Assembly: GCA_022560615.1 (NCBI GenBank)
Contig: JADFSR010000002.1
Location: 124,001 to 188,000, forward strand
Direction of reading: 5' to 3'
Source: Gemmatimonadota bacterium
Lineage (GTDB): Bacteria; Gemmatimonadota; Gemmatimonadetes; Longimicrobiales; Gaopeijiaceae
DNA length: 64,000 bases
Shown here: positions 34,983 to 41,354 of the stretch, piece after piece
Numbering within the stretch: the first letter of the stretch is position 1
Layout of the letters: the number at the start of each line of letters is the position of its first letter
The notes under the pieces: generated by a model
What the model was told of the DNA's origin: nothing
Seen by the model: the letters and a program-made list of their open reading frames with translations, nothing else
Databases searched by the model: none
Program-made: the position numbers and the translations under genes

Positions 34983-36200
34983 TTACACCATGCCGAAGAT
35001 CCGACCCAGCGCGGCGAAGAGGAGCGGGATCTCGCGGATCGCCTGGACCGGAGATGGAAACGGATCCTGCGCGGAGTGGCCGAATAGCCGTGTAACCGTC
35101 GCGTAGGATTCCGCTTGGGGGGACAACGCCTCTCGGAGCCGGAGGCCTTCTGAGAATGGGATGAGATGGTCGAATCGCCCATGAAGAATGTGGACTGGGC
35201 ACGCGACCTTAGACAGCGCCTCCATGGGATCCATTTGCGGCTGCGCGCGCTTTCCGCCCTCTGTGAGTAGCGACGCGAGCTTGGCTCCCTCCTGGACATC
35301 GGGTTCCCTGTCCGAGGGTGGCGCGATCAGATCGAAGAGCTCGCGACGATCGGGCGCGAGCCCCTCACCCATCTGGACCTTGGCCGGGTCGTACTGCGGG
35401 CTCCACGCCGGAGCCCCGGTGTCACCAGCGAGGGCGGCGAGTCGCCGGAGTGCGTCGGCCACGTCGTCCGTGCCCTCGTAGCCGGTGGCGTCCGTGAGGT
35501 AGTTCGCGGCCACGATCCAGCGGCCGTACGGGTCGGGTCGGAGAGAGATCGCGTCGCCGTTGTGCTCGTGCTGGCCGGTCATCATGAAGTGGATCGTCCG
35601 CCCGAGGTCACAGTATCCTCCGAAGCCCACCACGCCCGCGACGTCGGCACGGAGCGTGGGGTCTCCCGCCGCCGCCACCGTGTGGGGCGCGCCAAACGAG
35701 AATCCGACCAGCCCGAATGGACCCTCATGCACGTCTGGAGTTGTCCGTAAGGAATCTATGGCGCTCCGGATGGTAGGAGCCGTCAGATGTGGTGCCAGAT
35801 CGAGCTGTCGCCATTCGGGCACTTCAGGAATGATCACGGCGGCGCCCGTCGAGGCGACCGCGCGCGCGAAGCGAACCAACTGGGCGTGCGCCCGCCCGGC
35901 CCGTGTGATCCCATGCATGACAACCCACCCGGGCAGCGGCGAGACCGAGGTCCGCGGTCTCAGAAGGGTAGCGGGAACGGTGGTGCCGTCGCGGTCCAGC
36001 ATGACCTCGTTCTGCAGCAGCTCATCCCGGCCTGTCAGCCAGGTCCGAGCGTACCGGAGGGTTCGGGGAAACGAGATTGCCATGGCGAAAGCTACCCGCG
36101 ACCCGACTCGCATGGCCACCAGGCGGACGACGTAGACGGGTGGAGGGATGACGTACCATGAGAGGGCCGGCTTGCTCGCGGCGCTCCTGCCCAGCATCAT
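34983..36200 (-). CDS. Alpha/beta-hydrolase family protein
   Basis: 405 residues if the ATG at 36200 is used; ATGs at 36113 or about 36080 are alternatives because the first 40 residues are not conserved-looking. GWVVMHGITRAG holds the oxyanion region, FGLVGFSFGAPHTV the GxSxG nucleophile (about 170), and the end carries HILHGRFDHLIPF (Asp) and FGHSAQDPFP (His). The fold is that of dienelactone-hydrolase or acyl-peptidase-like enzymes. The substrate is unknown. It diverges from ridA with 39 bases between the starts. Confidence 0.8.
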   Translation of the reverse strand: MMLGRSAASKPALSWYVIPPPVYVVRLVAMRVGSRVAFAMAISFPRTLRYARTWLTGRDELLQNEVMLDRDGTTVPATLLRPRTSVSPLPGWVVMHGITRAGRAHAQLVRFARAVASTGAAVIIPEVPEWRQLDLAPHLTAPTIRSAIDSLRTTPDVHEGPFGLVGFSFGAPHTVAAAGDPTLRADVAGVVGFGGYCDLGRTIHFMMTGQHEHNGDAISLRPDPYGRWIVAANYLTDATGYEGTDDVADALRRLAALAGDTGAPAWSPQYDPAKVQMGEGLAPDRRELFDLIAPPSDREPDVQEGAKLASLLTEGGKRAQPQMDPMEALSKVACPVHILHGRFDHLIPFSEGLRLREALSPQAESYATVTRLFGHSAQDPFPSPVQAIREIPLLFAALGRIFGMV

Positions 36201-36239: not shown

Positions 36240-36683
36240 GTGAAGCGTGCATCGTTGTTCTTTGCGTTCCTGGCCACGCTCGTCGCGGTCCCCGCTGCGG
36301 CTCAGGACGGCCCTCGGATCGCGCATCAGAACCAACAGGGGCGGCCGTTCAGCCCGGCGATCCAGGTTGGCGACATGTACTGGCTCTCCGGCAAGATCGG
36401 AGCGTCCGGCGAGACGCGGTCTATGGCCGACGGCCGCGTCGCCGCGGAGACGCACAACATCATGCGCTCCTTTGAGGAGTTGCTCCAAGAGCTGGGGATG
36501 ACGCTCGAAAACACCGTGCGCGCGGTCGTCTACCTCGCCGACATCGATGACTACGGCGAGATGAACGAAGCGTACAGTTCCTATTTCCAGGCCTTTGCGG
36601 CACCCTCTCGGGTAACGGTGGCCGTGGGGGGCCTGGTTGCGGGAGCGTCGATCGAGATCAGCTTCATCGCGGTGAAGAATTAG
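36240..36683 (+). CDS. Exported RidA-family protein
   Basis: 147 residues from a GTG preceded by GGAGGAGCACC. A Sec signal (to about residue 22, AAAQDG) is followed by a full RidA/YjgF domain, with PSRVTVAV (the Arg that binds the substrate carboxylate) and IEISFIAVK (the conserved Glu). RidA proteins hydrolyse reactive enamines/imines such as 2-aminoacrylate that leak from PLP enzymes, and are normally cytosolic. This one is predicted to be exported. It lies 15 bases upstream of a PLP enzyme with a Tat-like signal, so the two may work as a pair outside the cytoplasm. Confidence 0.88.
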   Translation: MKRASLFFAFLATLVAVPAAAQDGPRIAHQNQQGRPFSPAIQVGDMYWLSGKIGASGETRSMADGRVAAETHNIMRSFEELLQELGMTLENTVRAVVYLADIDDYGEMNEAYSSYFQAFAAPSRVTVAVGGLVAGASIEISFIAVKN

Positions 36684-36698
36684 CCGGCTCTGGGACCG

Positions 36699-37958
36699 AT
36701 GCCTCTGGACCGTAGAAGCTTTCTCTCCGTCCTGGGCGGAACCACGCTGACGTGGCCGAGGACGGTGGAAGCGTTCGCACGGCAGCTCGCCCCAGGCGGC
36801 GCACCTACGGATGAGTCTTTTTGGGGCCTCGTGCGGGCCCAGTTCCTGATCCCGCCGGACCGCATCTACCTCAACAACGGCACGCTGGGGCCGTCTCCAT
36901 ACGTCGTTGTCGATGCGGTGACGGAGCACATCCGTCGCGTAGCGATGACGTACCCGCCTGGCGTGGCGTGGGACGATCTCAAGCAGTCGCTCTCCTCGTT
37001 GCTGGGTGGGGACGCCGACGGGTTCGTCTTCCCGCGGAACACGACCGAGGCGATGAACTTCGTCGCGCATGGGCTCGAGCTGGAGCCCGGAGACGAAGTG
37101 CTCACCACCGACCACGAGCACATCGGTGGCCTCGAGCCTTGGAAGCTCGTCACGGCCCGCCAAGGGCTTTCCCTGCACGTGGTGTCGCTCCCCGTCCCGG
37201 CCCGCTCTGCCGACGACCTGCTCAGAGCCGTGTGGTCAGGGGTCACCGACCGGACCCGTGTGATGAGCGTATCGCACCTTACCTTCACGACGGGCACGAT
37301 CCTGCCGATCCGCGAGCTCGCGAACCGTTGTGCCGAACGGGGCATCGTGCTCGTCGTGGACGGGGCGCACCCGCCGGGCATGATCCAACTCGACCTGGCC
37401 GCGCTCGGTGGTGACTTCTATGCCAGCTCGCCCCACAAGTGGTTGCTCGCGCCTCAGGGGACCGGCCTTCTGTACCTCAGCGAGGGGTGGCGCGAACGAT
37501 TGTGGCCCACGCTCGCTTCCGGCGGCTGGGACGACCTCTCGCTGGGCGCGCACCGCTTCAACCACATGGGCACGATGGACGAGTCACGGTTGGCAGGTCT
37601 GTTGGCTGCCTCCGAGTTCTTTCTGGCCATCGGCATGGATCGAGTGGAGGCTCGTGTCCGCTACCTGCAGGGATTGCTGCAGGACGGCCTCGCGTCGATT
37701 GCGGGGGTCGCTCTCGCAACACCTGCGGACAACAGTATGCGTGCCGCGATCGTCTCATTCCGGATGGAGGGGGTGGAGTCGTTGGCGCTCCAGGGTCACC
37801 TTTCGCGCACCGAACAGATCCGGACGCGCGTGATCGGAGAGTACGACTACGGTTGGATGCGTCTCTCGACTCACATCTACAATGGGCCGGACGACATCGA
37901 GCGCACGTTGGAGTTGCTGTCCGACGTCGCTCGCAACGGCATTCCAGCGAGGGGATAG
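36699..37958 (+). CDS. Class V aminotransferase-fold PLP enzyme with Tat-like signal
   Basis: 419 residues. The N-terminus LDRRSFLSVLGG is a twin-arginine signal motif. The fold-type I core shows YLNNGTLGPSP (substrate end), FPRNTTEAMNFVAHGL (phosphate loop), VDGAHPPG (the Asp that contacts the pyridine nitrogen) and YASSPHKWLLAP (PLP Schiff-base Lys, about 246). It resembles isopenicillin-N-epimerase/cysteine-desulfurase-like proteins. Tat export would let PLP be loaded before transport. It follows ridA closely (15 bases) and precedes the DUF2723 gene by six bases, so the three are likely one transcript. The reaction is unknown. Confidence 0.87.
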   Translation: MPLDRRSFLSVLGGTTLTWPRTVEAFARQLAPGGAPTDESFWGLVRAQFLIPPDRIYLNNGTLGPSPYVVVDAVTEHIRRVAMTYPPGVAWDDLKQSLSSLLGGDADGFVFPRNTTEAMNFVAHGLELEPGDEVLTTDHEHIGGLEPWKLVTARQGLSLHVVSLPVPARSADDLLRAVWSGVTDRTRVMSVSHLTFTTGTILPIRELANRCAERGIVLVVDGAHPPGMIQLDLAALGGDFYASSPHKWLLAPQGTGLLYLSEGWRERLWPTLASGGWDDLSLGAHRFNHMGTMDESRLAGLLAASEFFLAIGMDRVEARVRYLQGLLQDGLASIAGVALATPADNSMRAAIVSFRMEGVESLALQGHLSRTEQIRTRVIGEYDYGWMRLSTHIYNGPDDIERTLELLSDVARNGIPARG

Positions 37959-37964
37959 TCAAGG

Positions 37965-40169
37965 GTGAAGACCCCGAAGGACGAGATGCACGAGTACCGA
38001 CCTCCGTACGGTCCTGCCGCGATCGTGAGCGCGTGTCTTCTCACCCTATACGTGATCACTCTGGCGCCCTCGATCGCCTTCTGGGACGCTGGCGAGTACA
38101 TCGCCACGGCGCACATCCTGGGAATCCCTCACCCACCGGGGAATCCGCTTTTCGTCGTGCTGGCCAGGAGCTGGAGCCTCCTCTTGGCACCACTCGGTCT
38201 TCCCGTCGCCGTGCGCATCAACCTGCTCGCTGCGGTGACCAGCGCGGCGGCCTCCGGCTTCCTGTTTCTGGTCGCGCACCGGGTGCTCTCGAGCTTCTTC
38301 GACGCGCGACGGTTCGCGCTTGCGGGTGCCGCTGCCGCGGCGCTCATCGGCGCCACCGCGCTCACCGTTTGGGGCCAGTCTACGGTGAACGAGAAGGTGT
38401 ACACGATCAGCGTGCTCGTCATCGCGGCCGTGAGCTGGCTCGCGGTCCGCTGGCGGGATCAGAAACATGTTGCCGGCGGCGAGCGATACCTGCTGCTCGC
38501 GATCTTCTTGATGGCGCTCGGTTCGACGAACCACCTCATGTCGGTGTTGCCGGCGCCGGCGCTCGGGATCTTCATTCTGATGACCGCACCGAGCGTTCTG
38601 TTCCGCAAGGCGTTCCTCGTGCGCGTCGTGCCGCTCGTGCTTCTCGGATTGTCGTTCAACTTCGTGCTTCCGGTGCGCGCCGCGCTCGATCCGGTGATCA
38701 ACGAAGGTGCTCCGACCTGTGAGTCGGTGGCCAGCGCCGCTCAAGCGATTTACACGAACGGAAAGTCGGGCTGTCCGATGTTGGCGGACAACCTGACTCG
38801 CAAGCAGTACCAGACGCCTCCGGTCACCCAGCGGAAGGCTCCCTTCCGAGCCCAGATGGCGATGTACTTGCAGTACTTCGACTGGCAGTGGGCGCGGGGC
38901 GTCGACGCCTCGGAGCTTCCCGGAACGGCGAGGGTCCCCTTCACCCTACTCTTCGGCGCGTTGGGAGCGCTAGGTCTGTACGCTGTCTGGAAGGCGGACC
39001 GGGCGATCTTCGCTTACCTACTCGTGCTCTTGGCGACCCTGTCCATCGGGCTCGTCATCAACTTGAACTTCAAGTACGGATACTCGCTGTCACCGGAGAT
39101 CACCGACTCGTTGCAGCACGAGGTGCGCGAACGGGACTACTTCTATGTCGGCAGCTTCCTGCTGTGGGGATCGTTGGCGGGTATGGGGCTGGCTTGGGTC
39201 TGGCATACGATCGCAGGCATGGCAGGTGGCGTTCGCAGGTATGCTGCCGCGGCGCCGATCCTGCTCATCGCGGTGATCCCCCTCATCATGAATTGGAGCT
39301 GGGCGTCCCGCGCCGGGGACTACGCAGCCCGCGACTGGGCGTTCGACCTGTTGATGAGCGTCGAGCCGTACGGCGTGCTCTTCACCAACGGAGACAACGA
39401 CACGTTTCCGCTTTGGTACGTGCAGGAGGTCGAGGGCATCCGTCAGGATGTGACGGTCATCGTCGGTCAATACCTGATGACTACGTGGTACCCGAAGCAG
39501 TTGCAGGCGCTGACCCGCCCCGATCGTCAGCGGATCTTCGATGCGGACCTCGTTCCGGGGCTGTTCGCGGATCCCGACGTGCCCACGGAGTCCATCGTCG
39601 ACCTTTCGGCCGAACAGATGGATCGGGTCGGCGCGGTGCGTCTGCAGGAGGACCTGTCGATTTCCTTCCCCGGAATCGTCGTGCGCTATCCTGCCGACAT
39701 GGTCCTCGACCGCTCGCACCAGCTCGCGCTCTCGATCATTCACGACTCGATCGACGAGCGTCCGATCTACTTCGCTTCGGCCGGAGGGATGATGGGCGAG
39801 TTGGGTCTCGAGCGGTGGGGCGTGCGTCACGGGCTAGCGGTGAAGCTCGAGATGCGATCCCTCGACGCGCCGACCCCCGCCAACTGGGTGCAGGGCAGCG
39901 CCGACTTCGGTGGCATCTGGTTCGACATCGACCGGTCGCTCGAGTTGTATGAGAACGTCTACGAATACCGGGGCATTCGGGATCGAGCCATTTGGCAGGA
40001 CCGCTCCACGCTGAATATTCCCATGCAGTACTTCGCGATGGCGCTCCAATTGGCAGACGCCGCCAAAGTGGCGGGTCGGGACGCGGAGTTGGTGCGGCGT
40101 CTGGAGGAGGACTCGCTCAACTTCCAGATCGTGGCGCAGGGGGGAGCGCGGGGGACGCCGGGCCAGTAA
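37965..40169 (+). CDS. DUF2723 multi-pass membrane protein (putative GT117 glycosyltransferase)
   Basis: 734 residues from a GTG. It has about ten or more hydrophobic helices within residues 20-470, then a soluble C-terminal domain. The first loop SIAFWDAGEYIATAHILGIPHPPGNPLF is the signature of DUF2723, a family related to protein O-mannosyltransferases in which the acidic Asp/Glu of DAGE is proposed to be catalytic. The soluble part includes LFTNGDNDTFPLWYVQEVEGIRQDV, a motif common in the family. It is probably a lipid-linked sugar transferase acting on the outer face of the inner membrane. It is distant enough from known enzymes that the acceptor cannot be named. Confidence 0.85.
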   Translation: MKTPKDEMHEYRPPYGPAAIVSACLLTLYVITLAPSIAFWDAGEYIATAHILGIPHPPGNPLFVVLARSWSLLLAPLGLPVAVRINLLAAVTSAAASGFLFLVAHRVLSSFFDARRFALAGAAAAALIGATALTVWGQSTVNEKVYTISVLVIAAVSWLAVRWRDQKHVAGGERYLLLAIFLMALGSTNHLMSVLPAPALGIFILMTAPSVLFRKAFLVRVVPLVLLGLSFNFVLPVRAALDPVINEGAPTCESVASAAQAIYTNGKSGCPMLADNLTRKQYQTPPVTQRKAPFRAQMAMYLQYFDWQWARGVDASELPGTARVPFTLLFGALGALGLYAVWKADRAIFAYLLVLLATLSIGLVINLNFKYGYSLSPEITDSLQHEVRERDYFYVGSFLLWGSLAGMGLAWVWHTIAGMAGGVRRYAAAAPILLIAVIPLIMNWSWASRAGDYAARDWAFDLLMSVEPYGVLFTNGDNDTFPLWYVQEVEGIRQDVTVIVGQYLMTTWYPKQLQALTRPDRQRIFDADLVPGLFADPDVPTESIVDLSAEQMDRVGAVRLQEDLSISFPGIVVRYPADMVLDRSHQLALSIIHDSIDERPIYFASAGGMMGELGLERWGVRHGLAVKLEMRSLDAPTPANWVQGSADFGGIWFDIDRSLELYENVYEYRGIRDRAIWQDRSTLNIPMQYFAMALQLADAAKVAGRDAELVRRLEEDSLNFQIVAQGGARGTPGQ

Positions 40170-40187: not shown

Positions 40188-41354
40188 ATGAATCGTCCCG
40201 AGCTGTCCCGCAGCGAGCTGCATCGCTATGCCAGGCACATCGCGTTGCCCGAGGTCGGCCTCGAAGGGCAGCGCCAACTCAAGGCTGGGCGAGTGCTTTG
40301 TGTGGGTGTAGGGGGGTTGGGGTCGCCGCTGGCACTATACTTGGCTGCCGCGGGGGTCGGCACGATCGGTATCGTCGACTTCGACGAGGTGGACACGAGT
40401 AACCTCCAGCGCCAGATCTTGCACGGTACCGCAGACGTCGGAAGGCACAAGTTGGACAGCGCCGCCGACCGGCTCCACGACGTCAACCCGCACGTCGAGG
40501 TCGTCGGCCACCCCGAGCGTCTCACCTCCGAGAATGCGCTCGAGATCCTGAAGGGGTACGACGTCGTCGTCGACGGCACGGACAACTTCCCGACCCGCTA
40601 CCTCGTCAACGACGCCTGCGTGCTTCTGGGCACTCCCAACGTCTACGGGTCCGTCTTTCGCTGGGAGGGGCAGGTCTCGGTGTTCGCCACGGAGGGCGGG
40701 CCATGCTATCGCTGCCTGTTTCGCGAGCCGCCGCCACCAGGGCTCGTGCCCAACTGCGCCGAGGGTGGCGTGCTGGGGGTGCTTCCGGGGATCATCGGGT
40801 CGATGCAGGCCATGGAGACAATCAAGCTCCTGCTCGGCAAAGGGGTGGGTCTTGCAGGTCGCCTGCTGATCTTCGACGCCCTAGAGATGACGTGGCGTGA
40901 GATCGCGCTTCGGCGCAATCCGGATTGTCCGGTGTGCGGCGATGTGCCCACACAGACCGGGCTGATCGATTACGAGCTGTTTTGCGGAGTCACGCCGGCC
41001 GCCGAGCGCTCGGGTGATTCGGCGCAGGACTTCGAGGAGCTCGACGCCGTGTCGGTCGCCGCGCTCTTGGATTCCGAGACCCCTCCGTACCTGATCGACG
41101 TCCGGGAGCCGTGGGAGTGGGCTGTGAGCAGCCTGGCAGATCGAGGGGCGAGGCTGATCCCACTCGCGGAGTTGGGCGATCGCTTGGGCGATGTACCCAA
41201 GGAGACCCCATTGGTGGTGTACTGCCGGAGCGGCCAGCGAGGCCAGAGCGCGGCACGGCAGCTCGTCGCGGCCGGCTACGGTCCCGTGACCAACCTCTCG
41301 GGGGGGCTTCTCTCCTGGGCGGAGTCGGTCGAGCCCGGCCTACCGGTCGTTTAG
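40188..41354 (+). CDS. moeB: MoeB/ThiF-type adenylyltransferase with C-terminal rhodanese (MoeZ-like)
   Basis: 388 residues. The E1-like domain (about 1-250) has the nucleotide loop VGVGGLGSPLALYL, the IVDFDEVDTSNLQRQ segment, DGTDNFPTRYLVND and two zinc CxxC pairs (CYRC about 177, CPVC about 246). A rhodanese domain (about 285-385) ends with the active Cys loop VVYCRSGQRG. Such fusions adenylate the C-terminal Gly of small sulfur carriers (MoaD, ThiS, CysO) and transfer sulfur to them. No carrier gene is adjacent, so the pathway is not fixed. It is followed closely by the NDH-2 gene. Confidence 0.9.
   Translation: MNRPELSRSELHRYARHIALPEVGLEGQRQLKAGRVLCVGVGGLGSPLALYLAAAGVGTIGIVDFDEVDTSNLQRQILHGTADVGRHKLDSAADRLHDVNPHVEVVGHPERLTSENALEILKGYDVVVDGTDNFPTRYLVNDACVLLGTPNVYGSVFRWEGQVSVFATEGGPCYRCLFREPPPPGLVPNCAEGGVLGVLPGIIGSMQAMETIKLLLGKGVGLAGRLLIFDALEMTWREIALRRNPDCPVCGDVPTQTGLIDYELFCGVTPAAERSGDSAQDFEELDAVSVAALLDSETPPYLIDVREPWEWAVSSLADRGARLIPLAELGDRLGDVPKETPLVVYCRSGQRGQSAARQLVAAGYGPVTNLSGGLLSWAESVEPGLPVV

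Follow-up and report, generated by a model that had tools for sequence, protein, structure and literature searches.

A RidA-family protein with a predicted export signal encoded beside a putative Tat-type class V PLP enzyme in Gemmatimonadota

Results and Discussion

In a Gemmatimonadota assembly of 4.5 Mb, a stretch of 64,000 nucleotides (hereafter the window) encodes a RidA-family protein with an apparent Sec signal, followed directly by a class V PLP enzyme with a putative twin-arginine signal, and we hold with moderate confidence that this RidA is a general imine hydrolase of the cell envelope, its PLP neighbour being one likely source of imines rather than an obligate partner. The established role of RidA is to protect PLP enzymes in the cytosol, and other phyla also have RidA proteins for which signal peptides are predicted. 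The new element is an exported RidA beside a Tat-type PLP enzyme, while Tat-exported PLP enzymes and the clustering of Rid genes with PLP enzymes are already known. The pair suggests that the cell envelope may have its own control of chemical damage, though relatives often keep one gene alone. Among the titles and abstracts listed in searches of open-licence literature, none reports an exported RidA. A paper on chitin oxidation was considered as a precedent and set aside since its RidA is expressed full-length, while other genes are stripped of their signal peptides.

Gene arrangement

The RidA gene (147 aa) occupies 36240..36683 and the PLP enzyme gene (419 aa) 36699..37958, both on the forward strand and 15 bases apart. 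The preliminary description, in which a Sec-signal RidA precedes a class V PLP enzyme by 15 bases, is thereby borne out, both genes lying where it placed them and their products matching PF01042 and PF00266. RidA starts with GTG, preceded by GGAGGAG. Divergently upstream of it lies a gene for a dienelactone-hydrolase-like protein (34983..36200, reverse strand; PF01738, 23.2 bits, cut-off 21), which in the first and second families is a neighbour of one or both of the paired genes. Next downstream of the PLP enzyme, on the forward strand, come a TMEM260-like multi-pass membrane protein (37965..40169; PF11028, 137.4 bits), whose neighbourhood is kept in the window's own family, and a ThiF-rhodanese protein (40188..41354; PF00899, 288.5 bits). 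Hydrolase, RidA, PLP enzyme, TMEM260-like and ThiF-rhodanese genes make up the conserved block discussed below.

Predicted export signal and catalytic residues of RidA

Membership of the Rid family is clear from Pfam (PF01042, 84.2 bits vs. a cut-off of 27.3), while the protein falls below the NCBIfam cut-off of the archetypal RidA subfamily (TIGR00004, 85.6 vs. 106.25 bits); its AlphaFold model has a mean pLDDT of 81.4, and the solved folds listed for it are RidA/YjgF-family structures. The signals of both proteins were judged from simple rules and conservation. By these rules the N-terminus of RidA (36240..36302, forward strand), MKRASLFFAFLATLVAVPAAA, has the basic n-region, hydrophobic core and AxA cleavage site of a Sec substrate, with an 18-residue uncharged stretch of mean hydropathy 2.09, and cleavage would fall after AAA, ahead of QD. 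An N-terminal signal is present in 21/21 aligned paired RidAs, by eye mostly of the Sec type, with a cysteine at a lipobox-like position in some (L017, L041, L077 and L078, also by eye).

Arg105 and Glu120 of TdcF are described as the imine-hydrolysis residues of Rid proteins in PMC4433059. Their equivalents in the window, Arg124 (codon 36609..36611, forward strand) and Glu139 (codon 36654..36656, forward strand), are invariant in 21/21 paired copies and in 20/20 other relatives from the phylum, and the protein thus has the residues of the imine-hydrolysing group (RidA, Rid1-3). The position of TdcF Tyr17 is held by Phe37, and by Tyr or Phe in most other copies. Fold and invariant Arg/Glu are common to the window RidA and the described Rid family; unlike that family, the window RidA has an N-terminal export signal, and the terms 'signal peptide' and 'periplasm' are absent from the main text of PMC4433059. 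In a RidA tree the f1, f6 and f9 copies form one clade (100/99), to which no other RidA encoded in the window's genome belongs. With its clear Sec signal and intact catalytic residues, the window RidA is predicted from its sequence to be exported and to hydrolyse imines.

A different activity may be considered at this point. A chlorination-activated holdase activity of RidA has been described (PMC7464077), and by analogy with the N-chlorinated cytosolic protein the exported RidA could, instead of hydrolysing imines, be an envelope holdase. A holdase would hardly need the Arg and Glu of imine hydrolysis, and their invariance in 41 copies makes this reading very improbable. A conserved clade of RidAs with export signals and intact catalytic residues poses the question of what imine such a protein would encounter beyond the cytoplasm, and the neighbouring enzyme is a concrete, testable candidate source.

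Family and fold of the PLP enzyme

The neighbour belongs to the class V, fold-type I PLP enzymes (PF00266, 160.7 bits vs. a cut-off of 21.5; AlphaFold mean pLDDT 90.6). Asp221 (codon 37359..37361), Lys247 (codon 37437..37439, in an HKW motif) and Arg388 (codon 37860..37862), all on the forward strand, are invariant in 37/37 relatives, and Arg388 aligns with an Arg of PvdN. From family knowledge we take Lys247 to be the Schiff-base lysine and Asp221 the partner of the PLP pyridine nitrogen, while Arg388 is presumably the arginine that binds the substrate carboxylate. The enzyme is accordingly expected to bind PLP.

The best structural match of the model is PvdN (5i90), with Z 44.3 and an rmsd of 2.0 over 368 residues; the class V cysteine desulfurase SufS (4w91, Z 44.0) ties with it and the cystine C-S lyase C-DES (Z 42.8) comes close behind, all sharing the fold of the model. 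Identity as PvdN or as a cysteine desulfurase was rejected. The NCBIfam equivalog for PvdN gives 120.6 bits vs. a cut-off of 650, and TIGR01979 for SufS-type cysteine desulfurases 138.2 vs. 475.1. The catalytic cysteine of SufS is moreover missing, that of 6wci aligning with a non-Cys residue, and the window enzyme is therefore not a SufS-type desulfurase. SufS and C-DES are cytosolic, unlike the proposed location of the window enzyme.

PvdN, the Tat-exported periplasmic class V enzyme of Pseudomonas, is thus nearest by structure (together with SufS) and second nearest by sequence, at about 25% identity, and has an RR N-terminus as in the window enzyme. No pyoverdine setting was noticed at the window locus, and unlike the window enzyme PvdN is mentioned without a RidA partner in the available part of PMC6206403. 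The same part of that source establishes for both PvdN and the periplasmic transaminase PtaA that Tat export proceeds with PLP loaded, the route that the preliminary description expected for a cofactor-loaded protein. PtaA resembles the window enzyme in this proposed respect, but with the full-length window enzyme as query its NCBIfam model is absent from the families matched at E up to 0.001.

Putative twin-arginine signal of the PLP enzyme

The N-terminus of the enzyme, MPLDRRSFLSVLGGTTLTWP, opens with MPLDRRSFL and holds an RRSFL motif. Its twin arginines R5 and R6 (codons 36711..36716, forward strand), the putative Tat signal, are invariant in 37/37 relatives, own-genome paralogues included, and TatC is encoded in the genome, so that both an RRxF-type motif near the N-terminus and the translocase expected for a Tat substrate are present. 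Searched at E up to 10, the NCBIfam Tat model TIGR01409 still gives no match to the window enzyme, whereas 5 of 9 N-termini tested (one of the nine being RidA) score above its cut-off and 10/37 relatives of the enzyme are matched at E up to 1. With a mean of 0.94 over 13 residues the stretch after RR is weakly hydrophobic, and residues 18-30 form a confident helix in the AlphaFold model, so that what remains after RR is short as well as weakly hydrophobic. It is thus the invariant RR, together with homology, that supports a Tat signal in the window enzyme, and by homology Tat export is likely. The twin-arginine signal proposed in the preliminary description is upheld as regards the conserved motif and the presence of TatC, but the dedicated model does not recognise it. 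An enzyme exported in this way would add to the few known periplasmic PLP enzymes, in a phylum where Tat-motif class V enzymes are numerous.

Conservation of the pair

Among named genomes, 18 loci hold a relative of the enzyme and RidA adjoins it in 14, all of them in Gemmatimonadota; of the four unpaired loci one is a Gemmatimonadota relative (57% identity) and the remaining three, 28-32% identical, come from other phyla, and since the scan used peptides of the window enzyme its reach is that of close kin and these figures are no measure of cross-phylum pairing. A survey of 395 genomes of the phylum, in which the best 30 loci (L027, one of them, is the window itself) and 25 further loci were examined and some stretches ended early at contig ends, placed RidA next to the PLP enzyme in 18/55 loci. 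The arrangement is not unique to this contig, then, and chance adjacency was rejected on its conservation across relatives; nor do the signals fail for both proteins, and neither of the two findings that were to overturn the preliminary description was made.

Pairing follows enzyme identity unevenly: 16/17 loci at 64% or above, 0/10 at 56-62%, 2/6 at 46-50% and 0/22 below, with no RidA nearby in any of the 25 class V loci beyond the best 30. In 19 own-family pairs the gap between the genes, which share a strand, was measured and ranges from -4 to 72 bases. Such tight same-strand spacing and the pairing in 16/17 close relatives would suit a two-gene module in which RidA has the dedicated task of removing a reactive enamine or imine that its PLP neighbour produces in the envelope. 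They could also reflect mere shared synteny, RidA and PLP enzyme being members of a conserved block of unrelated functions, linked at most by likely co-transcription, and the disparate families of the neighbours agree with this.

Family f6 (L077 and L078) speaks for the module and against shared synteny, for there an enzyme about 50% identical to that of the window is paired with a lipoprotein-like RidA in a second context. The f6 loci are without the block of neighbours found at the window locus, yet RidA and enzyme are kept, the latter 466 bases downstream. A small multi-pass membrane protein without a Pfam match is encoded between RidA and the Tat-motif PLP enzyme (5426-5887 in L078, same place in L077). 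Nothing else argues as strongly for a functional link as the pairing in this second setting, and together with the exported look of both proteins it renders shared synteny unlikely.

Occurrence of one gene without the other

Close RidA copies (at least 199 bits, with the paired RidAs as query) occur in 28/395 genomes, 18 of them paired and 10 unpaired, and an eleventh unpaired copy is found in G337 at 178 bits. In these 11 genomes the exported RidA is in place, with its catalytic residues retained, and the PLP gene is missing there. In nine of them RidA is flanked by the hydrolase and the TMEM260-like gene; in the other two the contig ends downstream (G085) or the hydrolase is further off (G035). 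Likewise, none of the four f9 RidA copies examined lies beside a PLP enzyme.

The reverse condition was also encountered. Three own-family genomes (G322, G075 and G211) carry the enzyme without an adjoining RidA, as do 8/8 loci examined in the second family (f2; L069-L076), in all of which a divergent hydrolase takes the neighbour place of RidA; the 11 enzyme-only genomes have only weaker RidAs elsewhere, with best scores of 65-113 bits. The persistence of the block when either gene is missing is what shared synteny would predict.

A tree of the TMEM260-like protein, restricted to loci with such a protein of more than 350 residues (L015, L153 and the loci of the second family are among those excluded), has 31 rows, 18 with both genes, 10 with RidA only and 3 with the enzyme only. 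On it the enzyme requires at least 6 changes of state and RidA 3. Supported branches give 4 independent contrasts, and in none of these do both presences change, a small test with too few contrasts for significance. Strict co-dependence was rejected, each gene being present separately and their presences on the tree not co-varying. These observations weigh directly on the two-gene module, which we regard as unlikely given RidA without its neighbour in 11 genomes, the enzyme without RidA in both families and no joint change in the contrasts. The 11 unpaired genomes are the best argument against exclusivity.

All 11 RidA-only genomes hold other class V relatives, each at least one with an RR N-terminus and G085, G103, G280 and G333 two or three of this type, so that the exported RidA need not be idle without its neighbour.

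A proposed general imine hydrolase of the envelope

A general role of RidA in the envelope is preferred over both a dedicated pair and pure synteny. It is favoured because signals are found in 21/21 RidAs, the catalytic residues are invariant, and the genes adjoin in 16/17 close relatives as well as in both f6 loci, and because 11 genomes keep RidA without its neighbour while holding RR class V relatives. It is weakened by the failure of the Tat model on the window enzyme, with its short and weakly hydrophobic stretch after RR, and also because own-family adjacency may be explained by inherited gene order, no co-variation was seen and 0/25 further loci are paired.

Under this general role both proteins would act outside the cytoplasm. 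The PLP enzyme would fold with its cofactor, be exported by Tat as PvdN is, and carry out an amino-acid-type PLP reaction in the envelope. RidA, judging from the observed signals, would be exported by Sec and cleaved, or lipid-anchored in some relatives, and its conserved residues suggest that it would hydrolyse imines or enamines there. It may serve more than one exported enzyme, among them the many class V PLP enzymes of Tat type in these genomes, with the neighbouring enzyme as one likely imine source on which RidA would not depend. Rid genes do cluster with PLP enzymes, including cysteine desulfurase, according to PMC4433059. The preliminary description had proposed PLP chemistry and enamine clearance outside the cytoplasm; the location agrees with the exported look of both proteins and the kept residues, and clearance of enamines would follow from the latter, but a single coupled function is not sustained in view of 11 RidA-only and 11 enzyme-only genomes and the lack of co-variation. 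Tentatively, the exported RidA could be part of an envelope damage control, hydrolysing imines or enamines from Tat-exported PLP enzymes as the extracytoplasmic counterpart of the cytosolic RidA paradigm, in several Gemmatimonadota families and with both Sec and lipoprotein-like signals.

Other class V enzymes and exported RidAs

Class V PLP enzymes with a Tat motif are expanded in Gemmatimonadota, with several per genome (L109, L110 and L184-L211). L109 and L110 are two further Tat-type enzymes of the window's own genome, and no RidA was seen beside L184-L211 in the available flanks.

The window's own genome encodes more RidAs with apparent signals. L006 (G000:C15) has three RidA domains in one frame with an apparent signal peptide at the start, a 3x-RidA of a kind known from PMC4433059. 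A second exported RidA, lipoprotein-like, lies at about 5600-6342 of L106, with a divergently oriented gene next to it whose product is a Tat-motif peptidase or amidohydrolase of the M20 family, and a third, with a Sec signal, at 6075-6530 of L107; neither of these two is beside a PLP enzyme. Exported RidAs of two other families (L163 and L164) are situated near molybdenum-hydroxylase-like genes, by eye of the xanthine dehydrogenase kind.
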